From Coffea arabica (taxonomy: Eukaryota; Streptophyta; Magnoliopsida; Gentianales; Rubiaceae): a stretch of 64,000 nucleotides of DNA. Within the stretch, counting starts at the first letter, position 1, and the number at the start of each line of letters is the position of its first letter. The DNA is taken from positions 16,510,001-16,574,000 of the forward strand of contig NC_092312.1 of NCBI RefSeq assembly GCF_036785885.1, read 5' to 3'. Below the pieces are notes generated by a model, which had not been told where the DNA came from, searched no databases, and saw only the letters and a program-made list of their open reading frames with translations. The translations under genes were made by a program, and so were the position numbers. Below, one piece after another: positions 7,753-44,942 of the stretch.

Positions 7753-8430
7753 CTAATTGGCGTAGAAGGTAGCACCAGGCCTTGGCTCGAAGTCTTTCGT
7801 GAAAGTTTTTCCTTCCTTCTTCAATTTAGCATCATCTCCATAGGCGGATAGGTTGGGTCTTGGTTCGAAGTCAGTGGCAAAGACGGACTTCTTGTTGTTT
7901 GTAGCTTCTGCCACAGAATCCTTTTTGTTGGAAGTGTGACAATCACTGGCAGTCGTAATTTTCTTCGTGTCGGAGAGGGTGGAATCTACGCGGACAAGGT
8001 GCTCCAACAGAGCCTGATCATTTCTAGCAGCAACACCTTGCCAGTACTCTCCAGTGTCTTTTCTTGCTTCTGTGATGCCCGCAAACTGCAAGATTTTGAT
8101 AACAACAAACATATTAGTGGCTCATATCTCGATTCTTCTATCACTTTTCAGTTCCTACCGGTCTAACGTTTAATCAACTAGCTAGCTTCACAATCTTTTT
8201 CAGTTCTCGATCTAGGACTGGCTACAAACCCACTGGGATTCACATAACGAAGTTCATTACAAGTACCAGAAAGAAATCCGTTCTTGCTACCGGTCTGCAC
8301 TTAAAAAAACTGTACAATTTGTTAGAGTAGCTTTTACGAGAGTCAAGGTAGATGGATAGTTAATTACTAGCAATGAGCTTCTTACCAGGACCAGCGAGAT
8401 GAGAGCGATGAGTGCAACGGGTGAAGCCAT
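7753..8430 (-). CDS. DUF2775 organ-specific (ST-type) secreted protein with two tyrosine-ended repeats; candidate cyclopeptide precursor 1
   Basis: Two exons on the minus strand, 8430-8386 and 8085-7753, with a GT-AG join in phase 0, encode 125 aa. Exon 1 is the signal-peptide core (MASPVALIALISLVL). The mature part opens with the family hallmark ARKDTGEYW (residues 22-30). After a Lys/Ser/Thr-rich spacer come two 26-residue-spaced repeats: FATDFEPRPNLSAY (84-97) and FTKDFEPRPGATFY (110-123), with only Ala-Asn after the second Tyr. DFEPRP repeats of about 26 aa are the recognised ST/DUF2775 pattern. The family's classical role is unknown. Proximity to two BURP genes and short stretches ending in Tyr (NLSAY, GATFY) suggest a substrate for a BURP peptide cyclase; that is inference. 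The ATG at 8430 is chosen because it starts the hydrophobic signal and leads into a good donor. Confidence 0.87.
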
Positions 8431-8498
8431 CTGTCTTGTCCTCAAATTGCCTCCACAGCCTGGTTGTCCCTTGAGTCTTGAAACCAAGGCACTTGCTA

Positions 8499-8508
8499 CT
8501 TATAAAGA
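8499..8508 (-). promoter_or_regulatory. TATA box candidate of precursor gene 1
   Basis: On the minus strand this reads CTTTATAAGT, about 70 bp upstream of the ATG at 8430, a normal plant TATA-to-ATG distance with a short leader. Confidence 0.5.
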
Positions 8509-8533
8509 GAGAATTCCTAGTAGCATTGCTTGG

Positions 8534-8535
<2 letters not shown>

Positions 8536-8568
<33 letters not shown>
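8536..8568. repeat. Homopolymer C33 tract
   Basis: Thirty-three consecutive C followed by eight A. It lies 106-138 bp upstream of precursor gene 1, just beyond its TATA candidate. It may be length-variable or partly a sequencing artefact. Confidence 0.9.
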
Positions 8569-8570
<2 letters not shown>

Positions 8571-8591
8571 AAAAAAGTTTCGTTTTTTGTG

Positions 8592-11013
8592 AACTAGCAT
8601 TGCTTGGATGTATTTTTTTGCGAAAAAAATTAACGTCGAATGCATTTTTTTTTCTCATATAAGTTAAATCATTAGTCTCGTAGTCATTTATTTATCATGT
8701 AGGAAGTCAATCAGTCGCAATAAGTAATGATAAAATACAACCACAAGATATTTTCAGTGATTTTTCCACATATGGGAGGTCATCATTAAACTTTATGTCG
8801 TGACACTCTTTATTGATTTAATTGTATGGTAGATATATTTCAGGAAAAATCGTTTAAAACGTTCCTTATATTTTATAAAATGATTTTTTTCGTCCCTCAC
8901 TTTTAAAAGTGTAATTTTATGTCTCTTATATATTCACATTGGTCAAATTTAGTTCCTAACTAGGTTTCCGATCATTTTTTGACCGGAATCCATCACGTGC
9001 AAGGCACATGATCATTTTTTAAGGGTAAATTTGTCAAATTATATTTTATATAATCTAATCTATAGTCCTCCACATTTTATAAAACAAATTTTTTCGTCCC
9101 TCACATTTTATAAAATGATTTTTTCATGCCTCACATTTCACAAAATGAATTTCTCCATCCCTCACATTTCAAAAAATAAATATTTCCATCCCCCACTAAT
9201 TATGTGTGTGAGAGAAACCTTAAAAAAAAATGTGTGTGTGAATACATTTTATTTAAACACATGTATATGTCTATTTGATTTTGCTTAATAATACGAATAG
9301 CATCAATATATGTATGCGTCTATTTGATTTCACTTAACAATATGAATACCATATATTATACGTGATCATTTGATTTCATCTAGTATTAGCTAGTAAAAAA
9401 TCTTGCATTCATTGTCAAGTTGGCCAATAAAATTATTTTCGGTCAAAATACAATAAGAATATGCAAATTAAGATTCTATTGGTAAATATTAGTCATAATC
9501 ATACAAAAAGAGAAGAGAGCCCACAAGTTGGGCCCAATTACATACATGTGTTTATGCTATTATTATTAAATAAAATCAAATAGACATATACATGTGTTTA
9601 AAAAAAATGTATTCACACACATAATTAGTGAGAAATGAAAAATTCATTTTTTGAAATGTGAGGGATAAAGAAATTCAATTTGTGAAATATGAGGGATGAA
9701 AAAACTATTTTATAAATGTGAGGGACGAAAAACTTTATTTTATAAAATATGGAGGACTATAGATCATATTATGTAAAATATAATTTGACAAATTCACCTT
9801 TCAAAAATGATCACGTGCCTTGCACATGATGGATTCCGGCAAAAAAATGATCGAAAATCTAGTTAGGAACTAAATTTGACCGATGTGAATATGTAACGGA
9901 CATAAAATTATATTTTTAAAAGTGAAGGACGAAAAAAATTATTTTACAAAATGTGAAGGACATTTTGGACGATTTTTCCAATATTTTACTCTCTTTTAGT
10001 TGAATAAATAAAATGGGACAAAGAGCGAAATGTGATGTTTTTGTTTTTTTGTTTTTATAGAAAGATCATTTAATTCAAACAAATATGCACTAATGGCAGA
10101 AAATATATCAAACAAATATGACACAAATACATATAGATTTGAAACCAATATATATAACAGATCTAAAAAAAAAATACAAATAAAAATGACACTGATACTC
10201 CTGTATATCTTCCATTTGAATGAATCATTGTAACCCAATACATCAATATATGTGTACTGACAATCATATCTGATTAAAATTGGTTCAAATCCAAAGAGAA
10301 ATTTAGATCTGACAATAATGAAGAAATTGCAGATCTAATAAACCAGATTTTAGATTTACAAAATCTCAAATTTCACAAAGATAAAAATCTAAAAAACTCT
10401 CACAAGCAAAAAACCCAGAAGAAAATAAAATTCTCGTCAGATAATCTCTCACTAGGAGATCCTAGAAAAGAATAATCTCTCATCAGATAATCCTAAGAGA
10501 GAATTTATTCAAATAAGAGAAATTAAAAAATATAAATAGTACTTCCTCCCATGGAAAAATATCAGTTTTGATATCTCTTCCATGGGAGAGATGAAGAATA
10601 TCTTGACTGGAAGAGTTCTAAAGAGGGAGACAAAAGAGTTTTTACCTCTCTCTTGATTTGACACTTTTAATAGATAAACTAGCATTGTTTGCATTGTATT
10701 TTTGCAAAAAAGAGAAACAAAATTTTATGTCTTTTTTTGTAAATGTATGTTTCAATCATTTTTTTTATGTCGTATACATTTAAATCATTAGTTTTGTAGT
10801 CATTTATCATGGGGCATGTCAATCAGCTGCAATGGGTAATGATAAAATACGGCCAAAAGATATTTTCAGTGAATTGTCCACATGCGGAAAGTTATCATTC
10901 AATTTTATGTCATGACTGTCTTTATCGATTTAAGTACATTGTAGATGCACTTTGGTATCTTTTAGTTAAATAAATAAATAAAACGGGATGGAGAGAGAAA
11001 TGCAATTTTGATC
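8592..11013 (+). repeat. Diverged direct duplication, one copy interrupted by the palindromic element
   Basis: Copy A is 8592-8842 continuing at 9980-10030; copy B is 10676-11013. They share ctagcattg, then aaatcattag, gtagtcattta, gtaatgataaaatac, agatattttcagtga and cttttagtt, in the same order. Copy A carries the 8843-9979 insertion; copy B runs through without it, so it serves as a diverged empty site. Confidence 0.7.
8843..9979. mobile_element. Long-inverted-repeat (foldback, MULE-like) element
   Basis: Starts GGAAAAATCG and ends CGATTTTTCC. The left arm (about 8843-9313) and right arm (about 9544-9979) are inverted copies along most of their length; for example GATCATTTTTTGACCGGAAT in the left arm is matched by ATTCCGGCAAAAAAATGATC in the right. 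The arms are separated by about 230 bp of AT-rich loop. Flanking 9-mers TATATTTCA (8834-8842) and AATATTTTA (9980-9988) match at 7 of 9 positions, compatible with an old 9-bp Mutator-type target duplication. Each arm also holds internal repeats (ccctcacatttyayaaaatgaatt). No coding capacity. Confidence 0.75.
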
Positions 11014-13540
11014 ATCAATGGTGTATGTGTCAAATTGATCCCTACTATTTCTATCAAAACAAATTTGTTCCCTAAAGTTTTGAATTTGAGGCACGTTTAA
11101 GACAATTAATAAGAAATCAACAACGAATAATGGTCAAATTGTCATTAGTTAATAGTTTTGATTTTTCACTTTTAGTCCATAATATTTTGAATTTGGATTG
11201 TTATGGTCCCTTAGATTTTAAATAGTTACAACTAGCATTTGAAGATGAGACAACATATGAATTGATTAAATATCCTAATGTCCTATAGAATTTTATAAAA
11301 CACCTTACATTGGCACAGCATCTTTGTTTAACCTAAAGAGCATCTTTTTTATTAAATAAGTTAAAATTTGAAAACAACACATATTTGGCAAAATTTAGTA
11401 TAAGCAAAAGGAAAAAAACTGTAGCTTAGTACATAACTTTATTAATTACTATTACAAAAGTCTTGCATGACTAGCGGATATAGGTTGCAAATGATCGTTG
11501 TTAGTAATTGTAATTATAAATCCTTGTAAGAGTAAGTATCAAACGAAGTGTTCTTAGGAAAATTTAAGAACAAAAAACTTCCTTTATTTTCTTGTTTTTT
11601 CTTCCTATTAAATCCAACGTCTAAAAAATAAAGTTTTAAAATATTTATTTTACTATTTGTTTACTTTGATAATTTTATCGTGTGATTCAAGTAACTATGC
11701 AAAATACCAATTTCATCTCAGACTAAAGTTGGTAATGTATTGAAATTGTTTTCTCCTTGTATATGACTCGAATCCTAAATCCTCTTTTTAAGGGGTATCA
11801 AACCCTTTGCAAATGGATCCAACAATCATTGTGTGTTTGAATTGTCAAATTATTTCAAATGATATTTTGTTTGCATCATAAATACATATTCCAATTCATC
11901 TTTTTATATTCTAAACTACTATTTATCTCACATATATCACATCACAAAAAATACTACAATAATTATTTTAAATAATACTTTATTAAATACATGTCCCAAT
12001 TCATCTTTTTATATTCCAAACTATTTTTTATCTCACATATATCACATTACAAAAAATACTCCAGTAATTATTTTAAATAATACTCTATTTAAACACACTA
12101 GTGATTGCCAGGATAGAGCTGCCCCCTCCTACGCCACGAAACCCAACTCCCAAAACACAAAAACAACGAAAAGTCCCATTATTAGACCGCAGGAGCGGTA
12201 ATCATTAATGGTTTTATCCCTCAAGCTCTGCACCACATGAAACACGCGAGTGCCGTCAGTTGTATTGATCATTTGTTTCGGTAATCTATAACCTATGCTG
12301 GCATTCCCCATATTCATCTCCCTACCTTCTTTATTTTTGGGTGTGTTTTCGTGTACATTGACACTTGTAATGATTGCATGCTACAGGTGACGTCTAAAAA
12401 TTGAAATTTAAACTTTAAATTTATTAAATTATTAAGTATTAAAATATTAATATTTAAGCATATTTTTATTAAATAATTAGTGACTAGGTTTTCACTTATT
12501 TTCGAAATAAAATTTATCTAAAAAATTAAGTGTCATTTAATTAATTAAAATATTCTATTTTTAGTTATCAAGTACGTCTGAATATGTTAAAATCTGGACT
12601 AACTTAGTTTAAATATTAAATTAGGTTATCCAACAAAACCTATATTATTATATGCTCCTTGCTTGGAACACAAAATCGCTCGTGATTTTTTTTTAAAAAA
12701 ATATTGTCATGTGCGAGAAATGAACTAAAATGGAAAGTAAAGTTTTTTCTTGTTAACATACACTCTTTTTCGTTCATCCATACAGTCATATTTATTGTCA
12801 ACTTTCATTTATTTATTTTAGAGTAAATCTTATACACACCGTTAGTATATACACACTATTACAATTGGATGGATGACACATAAGTAAATTTAGATTTCAA
12901 ATTCAAATTTTACACACGTGTTATAAATTTAATAGTGATAGTATATACACTGATAATGTATATAAAATTAATACATTATTTTATCACATTAACTTTAATT
13001 TCTGAAAAAAAAAACTGACTATTTTGACCTTCACTTAACCGTTGAGCTTGCCAAAAAAAAAAAAACGCAGGCATATTTGATGAATGCCGAATTGCTAGAT
13101 AGAGAAGGTATTCCAATTATTCACCTCGCATTAATGATTAATCAAGCGGACCAGGTGAAACCATTTTGTTAGATTAAGGCGGTTTTCAAGTGAAATTCAT
13201 TTGATTTGATTGCTTAATTGTGGAAGGGTGTAGCGTTTCCTTACTCAAAACAAGTGCCTAATAAACCAACAGCTATTTGGGCTGTTGGCAACCATCAAAG
13301 TTTTTAAATTTTACTTCCCATCACTTATCATAATATATAGCTTGTCATTTAAATAGGTACACTATAAATCTAGAGTAGATAAATGACTATTGACAAAAAA
13401 AGAAAAAAACACAAGCGCCTGCTATGACGCACACTTGGTTCGACATGTTATTCAACACAAAGATAAATTTCGTATGGCCAGTTCCCGCTTCTATTGATGG
13501 TACATTACTATTTTTTTTCCCTGACAAGACTTGTACGTCT
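10031..13540. other. Gene-free AT-rich spacer
   Basis: Contains copy B of the local duplication (10676-11013) and a tandemly duplicated MITE fragment (11820-12095). The rest is AT-rich single-copy-looking sequence. No gene supported. Confidence 0.5.
11820..12095 (-). mobile_element. MITE family copy (reverse orientation) with internal tandem duplication
   Basis: The unit beginning ccaattcatctttttatatt is repeated twice (about 11891-11995 and 11997-12095). Both contain ctcacatatatcacat and acaataattattttaaataat or close variants. In reverse complement it matches the elements at 13905-14038 and 21192-21350 (gtgatgtatgtgagataaaa and a flanking 'gatgcaaacaaaata' block). Non-coding. Confidence 0.6.
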
Positions 13541-13725
13541 TATCCATATATATATATATATATATATTTGGTCGACTGGGGGTATCCCGGTCAATTGACC
13601 AGACTAATTCCCCAGATCGGAAGAGCCCGCCCCAAAGATTTCAGCACGTTACGGGGAAGAGTCGAACATGAGCCTTGCTCCTAAAGAGGAGACTACGGGA
13701 CCGGCCGAGCTAACCCCGGGCGTCC
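13541..13725 (-). mobile_element. tRNA-derived SINE with AT-repeat tail
   Basis: In reverse complement the stretch opens with GGGTTAGCTCGGCCGG (pol III A-box-like, 13701-13717). It has ATGTTCGACTCTTCCC (B-box-like, about 13654-13669) some 40 bp further on and ends in an (AT)n run at 13545-13567. The A/B-box spacing and simple-repeat tail are typical of plant SINEs. No exact target duplication recognised. Confidence 0.6.
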
Positions 13726-13825
13726 TGGTGTTGTAATTGGCAAATTTGCCTCTTTTGTAATATCAATTAGGTGTCGTGTCCACCTCAATAGGCATCCCAC
13801 GGCACCTCTATTGGCCGACCATTCC

Positions 13826-14114
13826 AAAATTGGTACATTGGGTAAGATTCTATTTGATTTATTGGGCTAAGGTACGCGCGAAAAGGCTGAGACAAGTTCG
13901 AAGATTTTAAATTATTTGAGATATTTTTATTGTAACATTTTTTATGATGTGATGTATGTGAGATAAAAAGATAATTAGAAAGATAAAAAGATGTGTTGAA
14001 AATTGTAATGATAATGTAAGCAAATAAATTTTAACAAATAAATTGGCACATCGGGTAAGATTCTATTTGATTTATTAGGCTAAGGTACGTGCGAAAGGCT
14101 GAGACAAGTTCGAA
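13826..14114 (+). repeat. 75-bp direct repeats flanking a MITE
   Basis: 13826-13902 and 14040-14114 are near-identical (aattggtacattgggtaaga versus aattggcacatcgggtaaga, continuing to ctgagacaagttcgaa). The MITE copy at 13905-14038 lies between them. Confidence 0.75.
13905..14038 (+). mobile_element. MITE family copy
   Basis: Shares gatgtgatgtatgtgagata and the flanking AT-rich blocks with the copy at 21192-21350 and, inverted, with 11820-12095. Non-coding, no transposase. Confidence 0.55.
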
Positions 14115-15855
14115 CAATCATTTCGGCATTTCTTGTCGAACCAAGAAAAAGAAAAAAAAAAGGATGAATGCAAACAAATTGGATAGTTTGTGAAAATCGA
14201 ATTCGGTTGTTGAAACTTGAAAACAAACGAAAAAAAAAATACTGAAGCCTGTTTTTTTTTTCATTCCTTCAGTTTCGGCCAAGATTCATCCTAAATGTCT
14301 TCATTGCTTCAGAAGAAAAACATTAAAGCATTCAATTATTAATTCACAATGAGTTGATATGGAGATAATTTGTCGTGTGAGGTGTTGATTTGATATGGTG
14401 ACAACTGACTTTTAATTTATGTCGTTACAGCAACCGGTTGGGTCGACAGCTCATGAATGAACAGTGTGTCGATTACTCAATCATTCACTGATCACAATCT
14501 CAAATCTTCAATAACAAGACTGAAGAACAACAATTCTTGATGGCATTCAAAAAACAGAAATTAATAATCTTCCGGTTTTCCAATTCTGCAGCAGCAAAAC
14601 ATATACTACGAAGAAAGAAGATAGTATGATAAAGCACGCAAATTGCAGCAAGTCCGTGAAGGACTAACGCGGCTGTTCAACACCAGTCAGGATGCTAAAG
14701 CTTGCCGAAAGGAATTTTTTTATTTTTACTGTTTATCTAGATTCCGATGGAATATACCAAGTGAAAAGAGTCATGCTTAGCCCAATTCAGGATAGCTCGT
14801 GTGGTGTATTGCTCTTCTTTGGAATTTAGCCATCAAGAATCGAGTTCTAAAATTAACGTGTTCGAGAAAAATAGACCTTTGTTCTCGAGTCGCTCGGAAT
14901 TAGTCGGATCGAAGGCCGAATAATACCACTACTGTGTCCCAAAAAAAGAAGAAAAGAGTCATATGCTTAGCTTAAATGGTCGTTTGCTTGCTTGCTTCGT
15001 TCTTCCTTCCATGCTTACGCCCGGCTTCAATGATTTAAAGATGCGCTGTCAAACCGGGTTCAACTCGCATGCTTATCTGTTCACGAGAAACACGCTTTCA
15101 TGTATCGGTGACTTGGCATTCATATGCATGGATGTTGACGATGTGACGCCTCACTAAGGCCTGTTTGATCAGACCGATGTCTGAAATTTGAATTCTAAAT
15201 TCTCAAAATTAAGCGATGAAAATATTAAGTTACAGAATTGTTTATACTATATTTGTTTTTTCAACTAAAAATATCACACAAATATTGTATTTATATTATT
15301 TAAAAATTTGTCTTTATTTGTGTATTTGGAAAAAAAGAAAAATATGCATTCGTGAGAGAGAGAGAAAACAACGAAATAAGTTAAAGATGGTGTTTAAGTA
15401 CGTGCATTTGTGTGTAAGAGATTGTGTGCATGCCTCTACATGTGTGTGTGTGTGTTTAATATAAAGAAAATAAATAAACATGTACTACGTGGGAGAATAA
15501 ATAATATGAGAGTGAGTTATGTGTATGATCGGTATAGTATGACGTATAATCGATTCAGAAGATTTAGTAAAAAAAAAAAAAAAACTTCTGCTTAAAAATT
15601 TGTACGCAAATTGGGTAGCGCTTAATAAATTAAGTGCTAAGGTATTTCTATTATCAAATATGCTGAATTAAAAAAGTTGTGAATGAATTAATTTTTAACA
15701 TTAAGTAAGTAGAGTTATCAAACGACCTGATTTACATTTCTAACTACCACCGATGAAGGGACCTTCAACGAGCACAATTTAGTTCTCTTCGTTCCAAACT
15801 CAAACCTTTCCTTCAGTTGACAAGCCTATTTCAGTGAGGTGCAACAACCATATAC
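14115..15855. other. Spacer upstream of BURP gene 1
   Basis: No gene supported. AT-rich, with a short GA run near 15353-15366 and a GT run near 15440-15456. The last ~150 bp are the presumed promoter and leader of the BURP gene. Confidence 0.5.
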
Positions 15856-16969
15856 ATGGATCTTGGTAGTTTTGCTTGCAGGATTGGTCACCTCTTTAGT
15901 CTCCTGATTCTGCTGGTAAGTTTTTAATCCTTCTTCCCCTTTCATCTTCAAAACTAATCTTGTCATTAACCAATTAAATTGGCATCGTTTCCAGGGAGTT
16001 CACCTTCAACAAGGTCGTCCCACTGAAGTACACGGGGAGAAATGGAACAAATTGACAGTTAGCCACGACCGAAACGACGCCAGCAAGCAGATGGATATGC
16101 ATTTTTCCATTGTTGATTCCACCACACCCAAGGACCCTAATGTCTTGCGACTGCATAGCATGGATGTTGATGATCAGGAACATAACAAGAAAGATGATGC
16201 TCAAGAACGAGAAACTCGGACAAGGGATGCTCAACCTCACGCTCATACCTCGTCCCATATGATGATGAATCATATGGATTTATCAACAACTGTGTTCTTC
16301 CTTTTAGATGACCTCAAGTTAGGCAAAACTATGCCCATCTATTTCCCCGACAGAGATTTGACTTCTTCATCCTCTCCTCCTCTGTTGTCTGAAACTGAAG
16401 CAGATGACATTCCTTTTTCATCGCAACAACTCCCAAACCTTCTTCGACTCTTTTCATTCTCTCCAGGATCTCCCCAGGCCATAGCCATGGAAGATACGCT
16501 AAGACAATGCGAGATTGCTCCCATCAAAGGGGACACCAAGTTCTGTGCTACATCCTACGAGTCGATGATTAACTTTGCTCGAGAAATCTTGGGGTCTGAA
16601 GCCAACATCCAAGTACTATCAACAATTCATCTTACAAGATCAGTTGCTGGCGTACGGCAATATACTATTATACAAGTTCCTCGACGAGTTTCAGCTCCAA
16701 AGATGGCAGCCTGTCATTCCATGCCCTATCCCTATGCAGTATTTTTCTGCCATCATCAAGAGAGCGAGAGTCGGGTATACAGGGTTTCACTGTACGGCGA
16801 AAATGGTGAAAGGGTTGAAGCTATTGCTGTTTGTCACTTGGACACCTCTCGGTGGAGCCCTAATCATGTCTCCTTCCGTGTGCTTGGAATCAAACCAGGG
16901 ACTTCTCCTGTTTGCCATTTCTTTCCAGCAGATAACTTTGTCCTGGTTGCGTCCACTTCTTCGATCTAG
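15856..16969 (+). CDS. BURP-domain protein 1 (candidate split peptide cyclase)
   Basis: Two exons, 15856-15915 and 15995-16969 (GT-AG, phase 0), encode 344 aa. Exon 1 plus the start of exon 2 form a signal peptide (MDLGSFACRIGHLFSLLILL), so the protein should enter the secretory pathway. Residues about 25-118 are a polar, degenerate linker with a His/Met-rich stretch at 102-114. The BURP domain runs from about 120 to the end. It contains the family signature of four CH pairs at 260, 272, 300 and 327 with spacings 10, 26 and 25, plus the expected two upstream Cys (ECEI-type and FCAT). BURP domains of the lyciumin and cyclopeptide type are copper-dependent peptide cyclases. No QPxGVxxW-type core and no Tyr occur in the linker, so any substrate would have to be a separate protein. 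USP/BNM2-like developmental BURP proteins are the alternative reading. Confidence 0.93.
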
Positions 16970-16999
16970 TCGCGTATTTCTGCTGAAGTATCCATGGCT

Positions 17000-17549: not shown

Positions 17550-20294
17550 TCAGTAGAATTCTAGTTCCAATTCCGCAGATCGCAATGCAGCTGGAGGTTC
17601 GGTTTTCTTCACTGGTGGTGGGAGAACCGAGCTGGAAGGACTAGTGCCATTAGAAGTAGAGAGCCAACCCCACAGCCTGCCTTCTTCAGTTGCCACTTTC
17701 AAAGGGTTTCTCAAAGCTTCAAGTACCTGTGTCATCCGGGGCCGCCTTGAAGGCTTGGGGTTGAGGCAGGCCTTGGCAACCATAGCCACTGCCCATACTT
17801 CCATCAAAAGATCCTCATGATCTATGTTTAAAGAATTGTCTACGATCTTGAGAACAAATTTCCTGTCATCATACATACTTAAGTAAGGCAGAACATCTGC
17901 CATCCAATCTTCCTCGTCAGGAGGATCACTTTTTCCTGGGACACTATGATGGTCAGCTCCAACCGTTACAGGGACGGTTTCTGGCCTTACCGGGTAACCA
18001 CTGGCAGCAGTAAGATCCAGCTTGCTTGTTACTCGCTCAAGCAAAACACTAAGACTTGGCTTGCCGGTTATAAGCTCAAGCAAAACCTTTCCAAAGCAGT
18101 AAATATCATAGGCAATTGTTGCCTTGGATGTACCTGGCAAGTCAAGATGTTTTAGATGATAATGTTCATGAATGCCGGAATAGAATGGGCCAAGGGGTTT
18201 CAAAAGTTGAGATGAGTAAATAGCATGCCCCTTGTGAAGTAAATAAAGAATGAAAAATGAATTGACTAGGAAAAGGTGATTTGTGCAGGTAACCAAGGGA
18301 AGCAACCTCTTAAAGGCATTACTCTTTTATTAACTAAATGAGTGCATGGGGAGAACCTACGAGTTAAGAAATAGATGATTCAATTTGTACTACTCTTCCT
18401 ACCTTATATTTTGGTTGAATAAACATCTATCTCTCCCTCAAGGTGCAGTGCAGTGTCATTTGTTATACCAAAGTGGTAAGATTTTCAATTTGTTTTTCAA
18501 AACAAAAGGAACCCCTAGACAACTGCTAAAGTAAATGAGGAATACCCGTCTCAATCCTTACATTCAAACACAAGAGCAGTAATCCACAGAACCTGATGAT
18601 ATTCATCGAAGATAAAAGGACACGCCAAGACGAGTCTAGAGTCTATTACATGGTAATGTCCAACTTTTAGCTATCAAACTAGATTCCAGATGTCAATAGT
18701 TTTGGATAGCCGTTAGACTCTTGTTCTTGGTAGTTTTTGGAAAGATTATACAGAAAGCATTCAACAGATGGATACTCTGCCATATTGCAATGTCTGATTA
18801 AAGTACTGCAGCGTAGATGGGCCAGAATGTGAAGATTTAAAGCAAATTTTGCCATCTTTGATTGGTAACAAATCCTAATTTGAAGATGGACAAATCCAAA
18901 TTTTACAACTCAGAGTGTAAAGTCAAAGGGACATACCAGAAGTTCCTTGTGCAGCTCCCCTGCGCATAAAGAAAATAGATCGTCAAGAAGCCTCCAGAAC
19001 AATAACAGAACTACAAAAGCAAGTACTGAATTAAGGACAGCGAATAAGGTAAAAGAGGAAATAGTTTTGTAATGCAGACAAAACGGAAAGGTAGGTTGTC
19101 AAGCTTAGGTTTATTTTGGATTTTCAATCCCACAGAGGGAAGTCATTTGTCAATGCAGATGAACACAGGCTGAAGGTCTTTATCAGAATCCAGAAATCGT
19201 GACATTTAAAGTCAATCACAATACCTCCTAATAGTGTAAACAACCCTCATTCTTAACTCTCCTGAACAACTTATTCTGATTCTAACCTTCAAGAATACTG
19301 GATTATGGCCACATTGTGCAAATTAAAGCGAGAATACTCGAGAGAAATGTATAAATAAGAATATAAAGAACCACAAATTTTTTTTGAAGAAAAAAAATAT
19401 TAGTAATTACTTTGGCAGCCGCAGGAACCTGGCAATTCTGTTTTGATTACCGTCTTTTACTTCAGCTGTACAAACCTCAGTCAGGCTTCCTAGACAAATC
19501 TCAAAGTTATCGTCAAGAAGTATGCTGCTAGCTTGAATATCCCTTCAAAGACCAAAAGGAGTAGAATTATGCCAAATGATCAGTACCATCCATCACTCAA
19601 TTACTCTGGCTATAATCAAAGAAACTGTTCAAAGTGAGCAAGTCTTGGGAATTGGGGGAAACCTGTGAACAAGAGGTGGAATGCATTGATGATGCAGATA
19701 AAACAGAGCCTCTGCAACTCCAGTTGCAATCTTCAGCCTGGTTTTCCAATCTAATGTCGGTAATAGCAGGTCATCATCTTCCGAATCAAGTTCCAAAATT
19801 AACGAAGTGGACAAGTCCCTGTTAGACATGTACTTGTAAACCAGGAACTTGTCATCCCCCTGATCCAAACAATGCCCCAACAACGGTACCAATCTGGAAT
19901 GCGAAAGCTTGCCGAAAATTTCCAGTTGCTCTACGAAATAGGATTCATTCTTCAACAAGGAAAGATCAATTTTCTTCACAACAACTGGAGTCCCGCCTTG
20001 TAAAGTTCCATAAAAGAGATCCCCGGAATGGCCATGCTTGATGAGATTGGAGGATTCGTTAAAATAATCGGTAGCGAGGAGAATTTGATGATAGGTAAAC
20101 GATGCACCCGCTAAGAAGCTGGAGAAGTTGAAAGATGAAATTCGGGCAGAGGAAGCAGTGAAGCTAAAGGAGGAAGATGCTGATAACGATGCCAAGGAAA
20201 GTTCACTTGGGGTCCTTTGACCGCTGAGCTTCAGCTCCTCTCTGCGCAGAGTGGCTCTGACCAGCCTTTCCCAGTTGTCGTAAACTCTAGACAT
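17550..20294 (-). CDS. At2g16250-like receptor kinase domain without LRR ectodomain; probable pseudokinase
   Basis: Four exons on the minus strand: 20294-19663, 19542-19411, a 23-nt micro-exon 18959-18937, and 18133-17550. All junctions are GT-AG and the total is exactly 457 codons with one terminal stop. The protein starts MSRVYDNWERLVRATLRRE and has a kinase fold: TYHQILLATDYF, VVVKK (ATP-site Lys), HRDIQASSILLD catalytic-loop segment, and a C-lobe with AYDIYCFGKVLLEL. The DFG position reads CLGS, so metal binding and catalysis are doubtful, as in its Arabidopsis relative At2g16250. That relative is a membrane LRR receptor; here no signal peptide, LRR or transmembrane segment is found in the 1.9 kb upstream. 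It is therefore either a shortened duplicate or a gene whose ectodomain was lost. It lies between a BURP gene and a DUF2775 gene with no evident functional link. Confidence 0.85.
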
Positions 20295-21191: not shown

Positions 21192-21350
21192 TGTCTGGAT
21201 AGAGTATTATTTGGAATAATTACTGTAGCACTTTTTGTAATGTGATGTATGTGAGATAAAAAAGTGGTTGAAAATATAAAAAGGTGGGTAGAAAAATGTG
21301 TTTATGATGCAAACAAAATATTATTTGAAAAATTTTGATATTCAACAAAC
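21192..21350 (+). mobile_element. MITE family copy
   Basis: Clearest member of the local family: ggatagagtattatttggaa, then tactgtagcac, gtgatgtatgtgagataaaa and gatgcaaacaaaatattat. Related copies at 13905-14038 and, inverted, 11820-12095. Non-coding. Confidence 0.6.
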
Positions 21351-21974
21351 ATTGATTTCCTTAATAATTAATTTTATTTGAAAAAGGAGAAGAAATTTTA
21401 TTAACAAAATATCCAAGTTTATAGAGCACTTCAAATATGAAAACAAAAAGATTAATTACATATAACTCTCTTGTGATTGTGCATAATGTCAAATCTCCCT
21501 ATATTTTTATATGAAGCGAAAAATGGACAAAATACACCATTGTTACGACAATTGAACTAGATGCGATCTAAAAATGCATGTGATAGAACTATAATATCCA
21601 CTTAATCTCCCTATGATTTGTATGCCTTCCACTTTATTCCCTTCTGTTTTTGTGTTTATCCATATAATCTGCTTATGGTCTTATGTCATTTAACCAAGGG
21701 TATTATTGATATTTTAACTAATAATATTATTTAGACTATTTTATATCAAGTTTTCACTCTATATGAAATCATAGAAAATGGAGTGGATATTTTGAAACTT
21801 TTACAGGGAATCATGTGGCAATAAGTGAAATCACATCGGGATTATCTATAGTTTACCCAACAAAACAAAAGATTACCTTGATTCTTCTAAAAAGTACCAT
21901 AGGTCTTTTTATCTTTTAAATACGAGTAATTGATAAGTCTTAAAAGCACCTTTTCAATATGCATATATTGATAT

Positions 21975-22062: not shown

Positions 22063-22194
22063 CTTGTTGATCATGGTTTTTCCGGGCAGTTGCATAGGTT
22101 TAACAGACTATTGCTTCCATCTTCTTATTGAAGTCTACGTAAACTACTAATTTTCATTCATCTTGTGCAGACATACACCGCTCAAGGAGACTAA

Positions 22195-22689
22195 TTAATT
22201 AGCTGTAGTTTCAGCTCTTTCAAATACAGAAACGTCTGCTTCTTTGACAGGAGATTTCTCTCCTGGATGATCAACTTGACCGGTATGATAGATTATAACG
22301 TTTGCCTTAGCATCAAAATTCCTGACGAATTGGTGTTGGTCAGAGTGAGATTCAGCAGTCTGAGGAAGGAGGGCCTTAACCACTTGGGGCATGGCCTCCC
22401 CTTTCATGACGGTGTTCCAATACTCCTGTGGGTCCTTTCTTGCAGTGCTGAGAGTAGTATTGCTGATAACCTGAGACAGAACACACAAGACAACAAAGAA
22501 AAAGCTTACAGGTCATGCTGCTAACAAAAGAAGACACTAGCATATCCATCCAGAGATGATCGTGTAGAAGATCTCAAAAGAATTATTAAAAAGCTTGGGT
22601 GCCTAGCCAGTGATGGGTAGGATTAAGATGCATACCAAAAAGAAAGTCAGAAGAAGAACCGGGGTGGCACAGAGATGTCTCGTCGTCAT
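22195..22689 (-). CDS. DUF2775 organ-specific secreted protein; candidate cyclopeptide precursor 2
   Basis: Two exons on the minus strand, 22689-22636 and 22470-22195 (GT-AG, phase 0), encode 109 aa. Exon 1 (MTTRHLCATPVLLLTFFL) is the signal-peptide core. The mature protein begins with ARKDPQEYW (28-36) and the conserved VMKGEAMPQVVKALL helix-like segment (39-53). A single repeat follows: FVRNF at 66-70, then DAKA and NVIIY at 75-79, with a 30-residue acidic/basic follower to the end. Relative to precursor 1 there is one repeat rather than two, and DFEPRP is changed to NFDAKA. If it is a BURP substrate, the predicted core is (N)VIIY with the Tyr side chain as cross-linking partner (inference). 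The gene is 2.0 kb from precursor 3 in the same orientation, consistent with tandem duplication. Confidence 0.87.
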
Positions 22690-24726
22690 GTCTTAACCTG
22701 ATCCTGTTTTGCTTCTGAAGGCAAATTAGGGTCGCTATTCTTGAAACCTAGTTTACGAGATAGAGAAAATTTAAAGGCTCACCGGCTAAGGATTTTGGCT
22801 AATTGAGTAGAAGATGAGAATGGGTTATACTTCTATTCTAGCAGTCGGTGTAATTGGAAAGACAATAAATGCCATTCATTTGAAAGATCCAAAGAAATTA
22901 ATGCCGTCAATTGTAACAATCCAGGCACTTATAGAGCGTACTAATTTTACTATTTCATTCAATGGATGAAAGAAGCTAGCAGAAAGATTTTGGTTTTACA
23001 CCAGGCACGTTTTCATCGGGGGGAAAGAATCCACGTGAATGTCAAATACAGATAAGGAATGGAAATACAGGTAAGGAATGGAAATCTGGCACACGGCTGA
23101 ATATCCAGAGATAATCTTGGCGACCAAGATTACCAGCAGTTTAAACTAGACATTATGAGCAAATCTCAATTTATTTTCTCTAATTAATGTACGAGAAATC
23201 TCCAATTGAAGCCCCCCCCCCTTTTTTGGGGAATTTAACTCCATAGCTCTTGATCCTGGTCCTCCTGGATGATTTTAACTGTTGTAGTTTTGTGGAGAGT
23301 AATCATCTTTGGAATTTTTTCCGAAAAGAAATTGGTGGAAGTCAATACAGGAACAATCTACTTGCCCCAGAGGCCGATGATGTTCAGACGCTTCAGATGT
23401 TTTCATATTGCTTCTGGGGAAGTTATGGAGATGTGCGTCCACCGAGATGGCTTCGGGAAAGTGTCAGTCCGATATCCATACCAATTCAAGTACCTTAATT
23501 TGACTAAAACTTACTATACCCTAAAGAGAGAGAGTGCAATTAAAAGAAAATTTGGGGAAGAAACAAAAACAGAAAAATTTAGGGGTCAAACATTGAAGTT
23601 TCGATTCTTGTGGTTCTCGTTTCTTATCTGTTGGCAGCGAAGAAAAGCCTCACTCACGCACACAAATTCACCCATATAGAGTCTTCAACCCACAACAGAA
23701 TGCACACTGAAGCCTGAACCTGTTTTTTTTGCTCGACGACATCAGCAGCGGCCACAATGTCACCGCCGCCTGTTCTTCACCCCATAAAAAAAATACCTGG
23801 ATAGCTCGAAAAAGGCTAGAATTAGTCAAATTTAAGGCGATCATGTCACTTGCTAGTAAATGAAAACACATATCGTACATCCAAACGTACGGTGTGGGAA
23901 ATGGAGAGGATATCCACTGAAGAGGAGCTAAATCCAACTTGAGAAGAGTGATGTTGAAGTGTCAAATAACTAAGTATCTCAACTTGACTGGATTTAAAAT
24001 GCATTTATTTAACCTTCGACAGACCAAAAAACTTAGGGGATTTGGATGGACAGTTGAAATCCAAATCCATCCAAACACACCATTGAAGTTATTGAGGTTG
24101 GGTGAACCTTACAACGTAATTCTGCTAATGCTTTTCTCCCAACTTCTAGTCAGAAGGTTGAGCAGGCATTTTCGGAATCAAAATCACAGCGCATTTTTCT
24201 ACTTTGCCACAAGCCAGACAAACACATGTACATAGATTGCAAGGATAGCAAAACAGATTGACATAGTTGACCGTATTTTCTGCACATCTCAATTAGTTCG
24301 ACTTTGATTTGGCTTTGCATCTTTAAACATAGCACCTGCACTTGTCCCCTGACTAACCATTAGTAAGTAGTAGATGAATTAGTTCAGTGCACTAAAAGCT
24401 ATACGTTCTTAAATACAGAAATGAGTCTAGAGTACGTACAATGGGAAACATATTAGGACGATTGATGAACGTTGATAATATATATATAACAAATTCACTG
24501 CAAGCAACGAAAAAATCTGGCTACATGGCCGCTCTTCTTTATCTGTTGCTGTCCTAATACTTGTATACTCATCCTATACGTACCCTGACTTGCATTACAG
24601 CAATAGATATACAATGCCCTGACTTGCTGCTAATCTACATATGCGCGTAATAGCCCAAAAGTAATACTAATATCTCGCCCCATATATGATGACGATGACG
24701 ATGACGACAATGATGAGCTTCGTTAA
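22690..24726. other. Spacer between the two single-repeat DUF2775 genes
   Basis: No gene supported. It contains an 18-bp sequence, ccaaacgtacggtgtggg, at 23881 that also occurs at 7596 downstream of precursor 1. Several open frames near 23250-23680 resemble no family I know. Confidence 0.5.
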
Positions 24727-25215
24727 TCAATGGATGACAACCTTGTTTTGATAGATTATGAGAGTGGGAGCCGTATCAAAGTTTGTGAGGAAACGCTTCA
24801 TGTTCAAAGTCTCAGGCTGCTTCTGGACGTTGATATCGGAGTGGCGGCGATGATGATGATCATCTGATCTTGATGAATCTTCATGGAAGAGGTCTGTGAG
24901 TGCTTTAGGCATCTGTTCATCTTGCATGATCTTCTTCCAGTAATCCTCTGGTCCGTGTCTTGCTGCCTCGCTAATACACACAAGCTGATGATCATGTACA
25001 ATTAAGAAGATCTTAGTAGTGCAGTGGTAGATTCTTGAGGGTAACAAATCACAAGAAACCTGATCACACTTACAGAATCGAGGAACAAGTACTATTGAGT
25101 AGATGCATGCTTTTCTGTTAAAAAGAAAGTACGGAAGCATATATGGTCAAAGGGAGAGCAATTCACTTACCGAAACAACTGAGAAGAAGAGGAGGATCAC
25201 TAAGCAAGATCTCAT
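24727..25215 (-). CDS. DUF2775 organ-specific secreted protein; candidate cyclopeptide precursor 3
   Basis: Two exons on the minus strand, 25215-25171 and 24984-24727 (GT-AG, phase 0), encode 100 aa. The signal peptide is MRSCLVILLFFSVVS plus the first residues of exon 2. The mature part starts AARHGPEDYW (22-31), a variant of the family ARKDPxEYW motif, followed by IMQDEQMPKALTDLF. The spacer is His-rich (HHHRRH at 58-63). The single repeat is FLTNFDTAP then TLIIY at 89-93, followed by only seven residues (QNKVVIH). The IIY end is shared with precursor 2 (VIIY). It could be a copper-handling or structural secreted protein instead, but the position between two BURP genes favours a precursor role. 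Confidence 0.86.
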
Positions 25216-25315
25216 ATTTTCCGTCTTCAAATTAGTTAGGAAAGGTACTAGTTGAATTACTAGTCTTGTTTTGCAACTTATCTGGGGGAAGGAAACTGTG
25301 CTCCTCTGACTTTTG

Positions 25316-25323
25316 TATATATA
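25316..25323 (-). promoter_or_regulatory. TATA box candidate of precursor gene 3
   Basis: TATATATA about 100 bp upstream of the ATG at 25215, in the context GTATATATACAAAAG on the minus strand. Confidence 0.5.
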
Positions 25324-28300
25324 CTACTTCACCACAAGACTTGAGTTCAAAACCACCACTATTTCTTTAGCGAAACGGGTTGGGCGGGGGCGATTGGGTG
25401 CTTCGTGGTCCAGGTTAATTAACACATGACCACATGTAGCATGATCATTACGTAAGAAGAGAATGCATGCACAGTAGTTGCTATACCAAGAAGTAGTACA
25501 GACTTGTTTCACGCCCCAGAAGGGGAAAAAGATATACTCTAACATAATACAGGATCGTGGTTGCACAGGGTCAACGCCATATCGGCAGCTTCTTCGAGTC
25601 TGGACCCTTCTTAAACTAAACGATTTGAATAGATCATCAAAAACAGAACAAAACCACGTACCTCCTTAATAATTGCTTAGCCACCTGTCCTTAGGACGTG
25701 GATGTTAACTGGTGCAGATTAAATAAAATATACTTACAGTCAATTGCAAAGGTTAATCCCCTGATCTTTTCTTTTCCCCCTTCCTTTGAAATTCCTGGGA
25801 ATCAGCTGCAATGGAGAAGGATCTTTTCTAGTAATTAGTTTCTTCTTCTCCTCCTCTTTTTTCTCGACAGTTGCTTTGAATTAAATACTAGCAGTTAAGG
25901 CTATACATGAAAGACACATTAACAGGATTTAAAGTTGTGTGTTTTTGCCTGTGAGGTAAACTAGAGTCTTCTTTCGACCTCAGGAAGGTAACAATAATAT
26001 AGTATCTTGTTTCCTGCGTACATTTGTTGGTTGATTTCTGTGCATCGCCCAGATTAACATAGCCGTTCATTACCAGTTACCAGGCTTTGGCAGCAGCATA
26101 TTCTCTTTGAAAATTGAAATCAGGCTGTCTTTCGACTGGGGAATGTAGCGTTAACTAGCCAATGGCAGGCATCTTCTTGTTCACAGCACAAAACCTCGAA
26201 TGCAAATGATGCATGCCCTCCTAAATCCCAAGTTAGTTGGCCTTTCCGGCCGTAATTAATCACAGATTTATTATTATTATTTTTTTTTTGGATTTACAGA
26301 GAGTCAACGCAAATCCCTGGGCTACAGCTGGGGAATGGAAGCATATAATGCTGATCGATCTTTGACACTGGTAAGAAAATGTATATATTATCCAATCGAT
26401 TCAACGTTATTAATTAGCTTCTGTCAGTCTTAACAGCTAGCTAACGGTGCAAGTTTTGAGAGAAATATATGGACTCATACATCATTTTCTGTCACTAGTA
26501 TGTCATACAATGCAAACTATTTAAGTAGTGCATTTTTTTTTCCTTCTTTTTGGATAACTTCTACTTTTTTTTTTTTTTATTTGAATTATCAATGACAAAT
26601 TAAGAGTCAACGCGTTGGGGACCCATAGCGTATGTCGTTTAGTCAACCTACAAATTATCCGGGACTGTAGCTGAGCTTCAGTCCTTTGTCATCTTCCTAT
26701 TTATCTAGATCGACAGTACCAGTGTTTAAATCTACAAAATATTTGGGGGGCCAAGAATTTTAGCAGCACTTGATTGCACCAAAACAGATGATGAATTCTC
26801 ATTTGTCCGTTGTACTTAATGCATAGCCAGACGAGGCATGGATCAGTAGGCTCGAGTTGACTTGGAAGGGGAGAATAACTTAAGGTCAAGAGAAGCCTTG
26901 TCGGTACATCCGATCCGGGTCACAGACGCTGGACTTTAGTGAGGCCAGAGATCACATTATTCTCTGTTTTAGCAATTATAATAATCAACAATGTTGTGTG
27001 TTGTTTATTGCGTAGTAATACGTGCACTTCCGAAAACAACTCTGCCCTGGTTTTGAGAAATGTAAAAGATTGGAAGCCGGGTTGAGTTGAGGTGCAGAAA
27101 CGTCTAGGAGCGAGTGGGGATGGGAATTTTATTGCAAGACGGCCTATTGGGATTTCTTCCAATTGGAGATTAACGACCAAAAACTATTATGCCAATTGAA
27201 AAAGGGATGCAAATTGCAACTTCTGAATCTAAGACTTGATTTGATGTTCCATCAATTTGCCATGCTTATCTAAAAGACTTTGTGATGACAGATAAAAGTG
27301 CTTTTCAAAGATTGGAATTGCGCATCAGCATTTGGAAATCTAGCTTTTGACTTTGCGTTAATGCGAACTGCAAAGCGGCCTTCGATTTCAACTCTGAATT
27401 AATGCAAGTCACAACATCGACAACCACTGATCCGTTTTCAACGAGCGTTAAAGTATGCCAGTGACTTTGGCAGGCAGAGCATTATGTATCCTTGCATCAG
27501 TAATCACTGATCAATCTGTCGTTGTGATTTTATGTGAAGTTGGTTCAAGATCCTTTTTTTTTTTTTTTTTTGGCCCTTTTGCCCCCTGCAAAAATGCAAC
27601 AAAAATTTGTTACTACGAAGTGTGTAGGAGGAAAATCTGCAGCCTCTATAGCAGAAAATAGACCTAGGATCGATGCCCAGTTGAGATTGGTTAGCTTGGT
27701 TCCTGACCTTTACCGAAGTACATTAGTTTGTTGGCGTGACAATGGGAGAACAGGGGAAATGGAATACACAGACACAACGAGAGGTGCCCGTTAGAGTTCA
27801 AATGGATGGATGAACCTCAATTGTCGGCCAAGGGGGACAAGGAATAAAGTGAAGATCTCTTGTTCAAATCCTCAGTTTAGTTTTCTACTGCTGATCAATA
27901 GTTACCGAAGAGTGCCCTGATGATGTCGGTTGACTCCGTCGAGACAGTAGAGCTGGTGTCATACGTTCCTGGCACAAAACTTGTCTAATGCGTCTTAAAC
28001 ATTCTTCAAGTAAAAAACGACAATCCTAACGTGACAAGGTGGTATCCACTTAAAAAAATGTCAAATTTACTCCATCCCACAGTCACACGTACAAAAAGAA
28101 GAAAAAGAAATGTAGTACTAATTTCCAATAAGCGAGTGAGACCAGGCCAATATTGTCATAGCTCGATCTGATTCGCCAATCTGCAATTGCATGGTAGACA
28201 ATCCACTCCTGGCGCTCGTGCCTGCCTCCATCACACCCCGCTAGGAAGGCGGCCTGCCAGTTGGCTGCACTCTATCCATCATCATCAATATTCCACTCCA

Positions 28301-29870
28301 CGGTGTTTGGCCTTAGCTACAAGGAAGAAGGAAGATAGTGGGGTAGGGGTTGACAAATAAGTAAACCACCGGTTCATTCTTCCTCCCAAAAAAAAAAAAA
28401 AAACCACTGGTTTCATTACAGGATTCATGGATGGTGTCTTAGTTGTCGGGCTGGCATGAATGATGAGCCCTAGGGCCTTGAGCTTCTATTCGTTTCAAGT
28501 CTAAAAACATGACTAATCACTGACACAAATTGACATCATTGTATATTTATTAGGGACGCAGTAGTTGTTATGTCGTCAAGCAAAATAGTAAGAAAGAAAA
28601 ACTTTTGTACAATGCAATAATTTGGACGCAACGATGCCGGTATTGACATGATCATGTGAGTGAAGCTGAATTAATTTTCCTGCAACAATTCCGAGTACCG
28701 GAATTGACTTGAGACTCCATTTTACGCTGTAGCCTGTAGTGTACGATGGAACACAAAAATCATTGAAGTCGGAAGCGTGTCCACGGTGGTCAACTCTCAT
28801 CACCTCCGTTACCACCAACATCACCCATCGGTAAGAGAATCGTTGAACGTGTCGCCATAATGGTCAACTCCATTACCCGTTCATTTGCTACTTCCGCGCG
28901 TGCGTGCGTGTGTTTTTTTCAAATAATAAAATAAAATAATGTATGCTGTAGTAGGACAGGTTCATGCATGCTCTGCTAAATGCTAAATTCGCTACAGGTG
29001 CATTCCACCCCAGACAGAGTGTCCTCCTTTTTTTTTTATACTTTGTGTGATCTCTTCATCTTTTATATGCTTTCCAAAAGTCCACTTTCTTGGATTTGTT
29101 GTTACCTAACCCAAAAAAAAAAAAATTTTTATCAATCAGGTATTCAACAATTGCATTGGCTGAATCATGAATGAGCTGAGCTACGGGTTGCTATTAGGAG
29201 AGTTCCCCTGGTCTTTTGCCCCGAAAGAGACCTTGATTCAAGAAAACAAACAAGGAAAACATTTAATTCTGATCCGCTGGCGGTAAGGACAGGTTTCCTG
29301 CTCATAGAAAGGGACACAATTGCGGAGATAGATTTATTTAGAATATCCAACATACAACTCAACTCATTCGATGCACTTAAACTAAAAGAAAAGATAAGAT
29401 AGATCATCCCGTGCTTGTATCTATTATTTAGATATAGAATGTCTTTTAAGTCGCTCTTTATTTTATAGGTGAACTTTTATTCGATTGGCCGATAAGTTTC
29501 TCCCGACTTTCTACTACATTTCCTCCCGGATTTGGGGTTTATAAGTGCTAGCCGGTCAGCGGAGTGAAAGAATTGCAAAATAAGCTTCCGATGAGTCAGT
29601 CAGCGACTTGTTTGCCTTGAGCTAGTAGTAGCCATGTATGTGGCTCATGCCATTTCCCCACTAATTTAAAGCTTACAATTTGGCTTAATTGGTCAGCATG
29701 CAGAAGATGTACCGCTAGTAGTATTAAACGAACTTCAAGATTTTTCTTATTTACAAGTAATGGTCAAAAGTGAGAAAAAACTTAGCAGTGCAGTACCGCT
29801 TCCTTTTCATTAATTTCATTTCCACGAGTACAACAGAGAAAGCAAAGGAAGTTTTAACAGAAAAGCAGAC
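25324..29870. other. Gene-free spacer between precursor 3 and BURP gene 2
   Basis: 4.5 kb without a supportable gene. Homopolymer runs occur at 26279-26290, 26569-26578, 27552-27570 and 28387-28402. A weak SINE-like segment is at about 27818-27886 (cttgttcaaatcctcag as a possible B box) without a recognisable tail. The last ~200 bp are the presumed BURP gene 2 promoter. Confidence 0.5.
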
Positions 29871-31025
29871 ATGGCTGCTGGACTCCATTCTTGCATTTTC
29901 TTCTTTCACGCGTTAGTTGTCTTGGAGGTAATCGTTCTGTTTCTGCCATGCAAAACACTACTACTACTACTTTATTGCTTTGCAAGTATTTGATGGTTGA
30001 GAAGTGCTTCTTGCCACCAATACAGCTCGTTCTAATTCCTGCTATGCTATGAATCTCATACTGCTACAGAATCTGAAGCGTGTGCATGACTTTGATCAAT
30101 TTGAATTCGATTGCAGTGTGTTTGTGGCAGTAGAGCCAGGAAAATTGCTGAAGAACCCTTAAATGTTCATGATCATAAAGAGACCCGCGAGATGCTACAA
30201 ACAACCAGGCACAACCTTAATGCTCCGATCTACGCTCCGGACAGCGACAATCCCGGCCGCAAGCATGTAGCAAATGGAGTGCCGGAAAAGCTTGATCAAA
30301 TGAGTCCATCTGTGTCGTCGGATAAAGATCATATGTACGAGCTTGCAGTAAAGGTTTTCTTCACCGACAAACAGATCAAACTTGGGAACAGGATTCCAAT
30401 CTATTTCCCCGTCGTAGAGCCTTCTGCCAGCCCCCCTCTACTGTCTAGAGAAGAAGCTGATTCCATTCCGTTTTCCTCGTCCCAACTGCCGTATCTTCTC
30501 CATCTCTTTTCCTTTTCCCAAGACTCCCGCCAAGCCAAAGCGATGATAGATACACTGAGCCACTGCGAATTCAAACCAGCGACAGAGGACGCCAAGTTTT
30601 GCGCAACGTCCCTGGAATCCATGCTTGACTCTGCACGTGAGATCCTGGGATCAAAAGCCCCACTGAAAGTTGTAACTACGAATCACCTAACAGAACAAAC
30701 CTCTAGCATATTGCAGAACTATACAATCCAGGATGAACCCCGAGTGATCTCGCCTGCCAGAATGGTAGCATGTCATGTTCTGTCTTACCCTTACGCAGTC
30801 TTCTACTGCCATACTAAAAAGGATAACAAGCTTCTCAAGGTTTCGCTTGTGGGCGAGAATGGAGGAAGAGTGGATGCTGCAGCTGTTTGTCATATGGATA
30901 CCTCGGATTGGGACCCTAATCATTTAGCATTTCGTGTCCTGAAAACTGTGCCCGGAGGCTCTCCTATTTGCCATTTTCTCCCAGAGAATAATCTTGTGTG
31001 GGTTGCATCGACTCCTGTTTATTAA
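29871..31025 (+). CDS. BURP-domain protein 2 (candidate split peptide cyclase)
   Basis: Two exons, 29871-29927 and 30117-31025 (GT-AG, phase 0), encode 321 aa. The hydrophobic signal (MAAGLHSCIFFFHALVVL) is split from the rest by the intron at the same place as in BURP protein 1. A linker of about 75 residues contains NAPIY at 54-58. The BURP domain begins near VKVFFTDKQIKLGNRIPIYFP and has the four CH pairs at 238, 250, 277 and 304 (spacings 10, 25, 25) plus FCAT and the preceding HCEF cysteine. It is clearly paralogous to BURP protein 1 along the whole domain (shared SPPLLS, IPFSS, REILGS, CHxxxYPYAVF and GENG blocks). Expected role: copper-dependent cross-linking of Tyr-containing peptides in the secretory pathway; a structural or seed/anther BURP role is the alternative. 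Confidence 0.93.
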
Positions 31026-44900: not shown

Positions 44901-44942
44901 CAAACACCTACAAGGTGCCGTGTTTAACATCACTTCAATCAC

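Follow-up and report, generated by a model that had tools for sequence, protein, structure and literature searches.

Split burpitide systems, in which a BURP cyclase is encoded apart from its precursor, have been demonstrated in Coffea and Ceanothus (PMC12186524), as the first-pass annotation of the present DNA had mentioned, and also in Ziziphus (PMC12871766). The enzymes shown to work are coffee ArbB2 and ArbB3, Ceanothus CamB1 (PMC12186524) and jujube ZjuBURP (PMC12871766). These cyclases are described as copper- and O2-dependent with four essential histidines, and a recognition phenylalanine has been tested in ArbB2 (PMC12186524, PMC12871766). The stretch considered here, a window of 64,000 nucleotides from Coffea arabica (contig NC_092312.1), has five genes of interest packed into 23.3 kb (positions 7753-31025): two encode BURP proteins (PF03181) and are intact, and three encode DUF2775 proteins (PF10950). 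This locus probably corresponds, in enlarged form, to the Arabidopsis SST1-USPL1 pair, as a split burpitide cassette with three predicted precursors and two predicted copper cyclases.

In Arabidopsis, SST1 and USPL1 have been reported as co-expressed (z 14.1), and the ST and SST proteins, whose role is unsettled in the literature, have been proposed as multi-core and single-core precursors for adjoining BURP cyclases (PMC11991032). That DUF2775 proteins are split-burpitide precursors is therefore a plausible hypothesis that is already in print. USPL1 is BNM2-like, and its loss has been reported to increase drought tolerance (PMC4198191); ZjuBURP also belongs to the BNM2 group (PMC12871766). 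ArbA2, the coffee precursor cyclised by ArbB2, is filed under PF10950 (PMC11253845), so that the DUF2775 family already includes a demonstrated substrate. This filing raised confidence in the cassette from somewhat better than even to fairly good, and slightly lowered that in two of its rivals. Of 700 transcriptome assemblies from plants, 66% were found to contain potential transcripts of split burpitide precursors (PMC11250218). The split cyclopeptide cluster put forward in the first-pass annotation is thus the best reading, given the published ST/SST proposals, the placement of ArbA2 and the demonstrated split cyclases, but the idea is not new.

The five genes, with their best Pfam matches, are as follows.

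7753..8430, minus strand: ST-A, 125 amino acids; exon 1 at 8386-8430, exon 2 at 7753-8085; PF10950, E 4.4e-16
15856..16969, plus strand: BURP1, 344 amino acids; exon 1 at 15856-15915, exon 2 at 15995-16969; PF03181, E 1.1e-76
22195..22689, minus strand: SST-B, 109 amino acids; exon 1 at 22636-22689, exon 2 at 22195-22470; PF10950, E 1.5e-10
24727..25215, minus strand: SST-C, 100 amino acids; exon 1 at 25171-25215, exon 2 at 24727-24984; PF10950, E 5.4e-08
29871..31025, plus strand: BURP2, 321 amino acids; exon 1 at 29871-29927, exon 2 at 30117-31025; PF03181, E 3.4e-75

Each of the five has two exons, a phase-0 GT..AG intron of 79-300 bp and a single terminal stop, and in each the first exon (45-60 bp) encodes most of a signal peptide predicted from hydropathy and by eye. 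The DUF2775 genes have exons and introns of the sizes published for SST and ST genes (PMC11991032; PMC3499167). ST-A, SST-B and SST-C all score over the Pfam gathering score for PF10950 (Organ_specific, DUF2775), and the PF03181 match spans nearly the full domain length in both BURP proteins. The layout is that of two divergent modules, in which ST-A stands head to head with BURP1 (7,425 bp from ATG to ATG) and SST-C with BURP2 (4,655 bp); SST-B lies behind SST-C. Stand-alone genes of a precursor family accordingly lie beside stand-alone BURP genes, the arrangement that defines a split burpitide locus. The initial description of two paralogous BURP genes with intact CH motifs and three DUF2775 genes with a tiny signal-peptide exon, all within 23 kb, was confirmed by the gene models, the Pfam matches and the CH spacings. 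A tblastn search of the window (E up to 10) found no further copies of the five proteins, only weak short pieces (E at least 0.1) that are attributed to chance, such as those at 21307-21357 (E 3.2) and 11721-11747 (E 4.8).

As in Arabidopsis, a DUF2775 SST gene with a small first exon lies beside a BURP gene, a PI4-kinase gene is near, and IIY is part of the SST consensus. However, the Arabidopsis locus has one SST and no ST, whereas two BURPs, two SSTs, one ST and a kinase-like gene between the modules are present here. SST, ST and BURP genes are similarly intermixed in the MtSST2/MtST3/MtST2 region of Medicago truncatula, which has three BURPs (PMC11991032). The Medicago STs are 359-493 amino acids long, whereas ST-A has two repeats in 125; in this it is like the short two-repeat grape proteins VviST4-6, which are marked as non-canonical (PMC3499167). 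The locus is a further case of conserved DUF2775-BURP linkage; its value is as a good test case, and it does not appear to be a system of a new kind.

Although the three DUF2775 genes were originally treated as one set, and all do belong to PF10950, they fall into two published subclasses. ST proteins are recognised by the (D/E)FEPRPx4Y repeat (PMC3499167) and by a cysteine in the non-repeat zone (PMC11991032). ST-A has at least one such repeat and Cys64 in its non-repeat zone; in fact, it carries two exact ST repeats, DFEPRPNLSAY and DFEPRPGATFY, spaced 26 residues apart. SST proteins are characterised by a signal peptide, a single 5' intron, a mature R-x5-7-YW N-terminus, F-x3-F, IIYH and the lack of repeats (PMC11991032). 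SST-B, with the single unit FVRNFDAKANVIIYH, and SST-C, with the single unit FLTNFDTAPTLIIYQ, show these features, departing from them in that P-x-P is A-M-P or Q-M-P and in that SST-C has IIYQ instead of IIYH. The two SST proteins share 29 of 80 residues, with a saturated dS of 3.3 and dN/dS of about 0.17 (nonsynonymous and synonymous substitution rates, Nei-Gojobori).

All four motifs contain F-x2-[N/D]-F-[D/E], and a tyrosine follows nine residues past the second phenylalanine. When the residues of the three mature proteins were shuffled, 20,000 times each, the pattern F..[ND]F[DE].{7}Y arose in 0, 1 and 0 cases. This much of the motif as first described was borne out, but the segment before the tyrosine had been called hydrophobic, and NLSAY and GATFY are not really so. 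The residue two before the tyrosine is Ile in both SSTs and Ser or Thr in the ST-A repeats. The KDFEPRP sequence of ST-A resembles the ArbA2 recognition sequence KDFESKP, and the coffee arb cluster (arabipeptin A) is like the present locus in having a PF10950 precursor with a KDFE-x-x-P unit beside stand-alone BURPs. On this likeness, ST-A may dock as ArbA2 does, with a core beginning directly after the proline.

Both BURP proteins conform to the definition of the BURP domain (PF03181 with CHx10CHx25-27CHx25-26CH), with spacings of 10/26/25 and 10/25/25 and with all four CH pairs intact in each. They match AhyBURP (PDB 8SY2) with E 4.2e-17 for BURP1 and 4.3e-15 for BURP2, and all four CH pairs align. 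AhyBURP differs in that its core lies within the same protein (a fused cyclase), and in having Gln rather than Pro at five residues after the first active-site histidine. A proline at this position in both BURPs corresponds to Pro242 of ArbB2, and a methionine 76 or 77 residues ahead of the same histidine to Met160, by spacing only, as the ArbB2 sequence was not part of the comparison; in ArbB2 both are experimentally tested residues of the pocket for the substrate phenylalanine (PMC12186524). In the coffee cluster, two of the three stand-alone BURP cyclases are functional (PMC12186524). The proline had been considered as a hallmark of split cyclases, but was dropped as such because RD22 and other BURPs also have it.

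BURP1 and BURP2 are identical at 152 of 315 aligned residues (dN 0.50, dS 1.70, dN/dS about 0.29 by Nei-Gojobori, with the dS high). When the DNA of the two modules was compared, matches at E 1e-3 were confined to the BURP exons. Since only these exons are still alike in DNA and the paralogues have diverged, the duplication of the module, as judged from paralogy alone, would be an old one in which both cyclases were kept intact. As would be expected of a family confined to plants, searches of contigs from bacterial and archaeal genomes, of viral contigs and of plasmids found no relatives of the BURPs. The layout and synteny suggest a BNM2-like subfamily placement for BURP1 and BURP2, 8SY2 being the sole relative found.

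Two short stretches in the BURP N-termini were also observed. The N-terminal region of BURP2 (30117-30350, plus strand) holds one NAPIY, which is similar to the jujube lotusine core FPIY; it is present in a single copy with no Phe unit ahead, and may be due to chance. In BURP1, EKWNKL bears by eye a loose likeness to the YW motif.

In the proposed pathway, each precursor would shed its signal peptide to give a mature protein with an N-terminal arginine, and a BURP enzyme would dock on the conserved phenylalanine of the [N/D]F[D/E] unit. A site with two coppers and four histidines would then use O2 to cross-link the motif-ending tyrosine to a residue two or three positions before it, and proteases would liberate a cyclopeptide of about four to five residues. 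The two divergent modules make it likely that BURP1 is paired with ST-A and BURP2 with SST-B and SST-C; the cognate cores would then be of the Ser/Thr-x-Tyr type for BURP1 and of the xIIY type for BURP2. For the candidate cyclic cores, the calculated [M+H]+ values are 505.302 (VIIY), 619.345 (NVIIY), 519.318 (LIIY), 620.365 (TLIIY), 565.262 (NLSAY) and 556.240 (GATFY); the same calculation returns the published 537.271 for cyclic FPIY (PMC12871766). A compact locus with both core types, two intact cyclases, exact masses and so simple a pairing prediction makes the Ser/Thr-core question testable.

Several observations weigh against this reading, the most direct of which concern the motif itself. 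The recognition residue lies 11 positions before the tyrosine in all four validated substrates compared, namely ArbA2, the two cores of CamA1, and CamA2, and is Phe except in CamA2, where it is Ile (PMC12186524); in all four motifs here the distance is nine. ArbA2 moreover has Leu as the partner, whereas Ile, Ile, Ser or Thr is found here two before the tyrosine. These are unusual for cyclopeptide alkaloids, in which the known partners are Leu (33%), Pro (40%) and Phe (21%), 94% together (PMC12871766). In the SSTs, the phenylalanine is flanked on one side by Asn, while charged flanks are expected of a split recognition unit.

The partner residue bears also on the type of bond. It is possible, if unlikely, that the cross-link is not a Tyr-O-Cbeta ether at all but joins a tyrosine carbon to the Ile side chain, as in the hibispeptins, or is of some other kind, in which case the products would belong to another class of burpitides. 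The two readings overlap, as the cassette reading does not fix the bond. In hibispeptins, for which there are putative split precursors, the gamma-methyl of Ile is joined to a ring derived from Tyr, and both SSTs have Ile in place of the usual Leu, Pro or Phe. When ArbB2 was given Ile or Val for Leu, products formed whose cross-links could not be placed (PMC12186524). However, hibispeptin biosynthesis has itself not been reconstituted, and Tyr-O bonds have been reported on native cores for ZjuBURP by nuclear magnetic resonance (PMC12871766), for CamB1, as to position, by tandem mass spectrometry (PMC12186524), and for ArbB2. The Tyr-ether cyclopeptides with cores VIIY and LIIY that had been predicted at first go beyond this evidence, given the distance of nine rather than 11, the Ile, Ser or Thr partner, and the possible hibispeptin-type bond.

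The difference in recognition distance would also fit a linkage that is merely historical, with the BURPs unrelated to their DUF2775 neighbours and having substrates elsewhere or none; BURP2 might, for instance, act on its own N-terminal NAPIY, as known fused cyclases can carry a single core (e.g., Sali3-2). ZjuBURP does cyclise a precursor from another chromosome as well (PMC12871766). But DUF2775 and BURP genes are adjacent and co-expressed in Arabidopsis and clustered in Medicago (PMC11991032), and two divergent modules occur here; PIY, furthermore, recurs in the ordinary start of the BURP domain in both BURP1 and BURP2, which makes the N-terminal PIY a weak indication. Such an accidental association seems very improbable.

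Among the other points against a split burpitide cassette, no burpitide with a Ser/Thr core has ever been isolated, although genes for Ser/Thr-x-Tyr cores are common (PMC11250218, PMC11991032), and no report of a cyclised ST- or SST-type protein was found in the literature examined. This may suggest that the DUF2775 proteins are BURP substrates from which no cyclopeptide is released, the tyrosine cross-links instead stiffening or insolubilising wall or vacuole proteins for structure, storage or stress tolerance. ST proteins have been linked to cell elongation, desiccation and nitrogen storage, some build up in the apoplast, and SST1-GFP collects in granules (PMC11991032). However, the split BURP enzymes studied act inside one short core (PMC12186524), and ZjuBURP has yielded a cyclic core in free form (PMC12871766). 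An antibody that sees recombinant SST1 also missed the native protein, and its authors consider proteolysis possible (PMC11991032). Cross-linking without release thus appears rather improbable.

Further negative results weigh in the same direction as regards the cassette. Neither BURP has a PF10950-like N-terminus, and an Ax6YWx7PMP-like motif, which has been reported for some BURPs, is present in neither N-terminus. Of the upstream 500-bp stretches of the five genes, at least three have five 8-mers in common, no more than in 200 randomised sets (mean 5.8). The dN/dS ratios are Nei-Gojobori values, as YN00 gave no estimate for any of the four pairs, and an AlphaFold2 model of BURP1 exon 2, made from a two-row alignment, had a predicted local distance difference test score (pLDDT) of 30.9 and was not used. 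Finally, no decarboxylase, methyltransferase, 2-oxoglutarate (2OG) oxygenase or secretory protease was recognised by Pfam in 21 open reading frames (ORFs) outside the five genes, drawn from 220 ORF listings (a few listed twice).

The absence of tailoring genes counts for little, because few ORFs were searched and because the known decarboxylase and methyltransferase of Ziziphus are on other chromosomes (PMC12871766). In that system, as here, a split cyclase is co-localised with its precursor; ZjuPrec-FPIY, the lotusine A precursor, contains the core FPIY eleven times and FLIY three times, Pro being the partner in FPIY (PMC12871766). The gja cluster of Gardenia jasminoides has the same counts as this locus, with three precursors and two complete burpitide cyclases, but extends over 266 kb, includes three potential methyltransferases and has the cores FFFY, FLFY and FLLY (PMC11250218).

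Besides the five cassette genes, Pfam recognised a SWIRM/Myb (SWI3-like) gene, part of a protein kinase, a SWEET gene, a ClpP gene, a DUF7086 ORF and three PI4K_N ORFs. Four features of this neighbourhood are listed below.

17550-20294, minus strand: protein kinase piece between the modules; partial kinase domain match, possibly truncated
49245..50231, plus strand: one uninterrupted ORF with a proline-rich front and DUF7086 (PF23324, E 2.7e-69), a family of unassigned function
52361-58071, minus strand: pieces of a non-LTR (long terminal repeat) retroelement of the long interspersed nuclear element (LINE) type, in separate ORFs, with RVT_1, RVT_3 and DUF4283 in three
59423..63709, plus strand: exons from the 5' portion of a PI4-kinase gene; three ORFs with PI4K_N (PF19274), best E 3e-59

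The PI4K_N domain is taken here as the mark of an alpha-type PI4-kinase. The LINE-type pieces separate the DUF7086 ORF from the PI4-kinase gene. The Arabidopsis genes SST1 (At1g49310) and USPL1 (At1g49320) are near PI 3/4-kinase and hydroxyproline-rich glycoprotein genes (PMC11991032), and At1g49340, numbered two places from USPL1, is PI4Kalpha1 (PMC9334301). The DUF7086 ORF is a possible counterpart of that hydroxyproline-rich glycoprotein gene. That a PI4-kinase gene lies near the cassette both here and in Arabidopsis suggests that the cassette has long been conserved, and makes the uspl1 mutants of Arabidopsis a convenient genetic tool. No published report of a shared cassette/PI4-kinase neighbourhood turned up, in literature searches that were not aimed at synteny and did not extend to supplementary figures.

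A second link to Arabidopsis may exist. An ORF at 40.4 kb, whose searches gave no match, is tentatively read as LEW1/NUS1, and one at 44.5-44.9 kb presumably encodes plant MED32, although the database match of the latter to Mediator subunit 29 is weak (Pfam E 0.006, below the cut-off; PDB E 0.18). At 35022-44948, ClpP, the possible LEW1/NUS1 and the possible MED32 follow the order of At1g11750, At1g11755 and At1g11760. These three Arabidopsis loci are ClpP6, LEW1 and MED32, respectively. The suggestion is that the window resembles one ancestral segment that is now in two places in Arabidopsis, the PI4-kinase link being the firm part and the other link the more tentative one.

A more speculative extension, and one considered doubtful, is that an ancient, position-conserved DUF2775-BURP cassette makes a near-invariant xIIY cyclopeptide whose role in core eudicots is physiological and hormone-like, not that of a defence alkaloid, and has here been duplicated into an IIY module and a Ser/Thr-x-Tyr module. 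If so, the second module would yield the still-missing Ser/Thr class.

The GC content of the window is 37.4%, and its gene content is plant-like. Scans with Rfam (at the gathering threshold) and for tRNA genes gave no match in the window. A C/T-rich stretch of low complexity is present at about 5500-6250, and a run of 33 C (G on the minus strand) occupies 8536-8568, approximately 100 bp upstream of exon 1 of ST-A.

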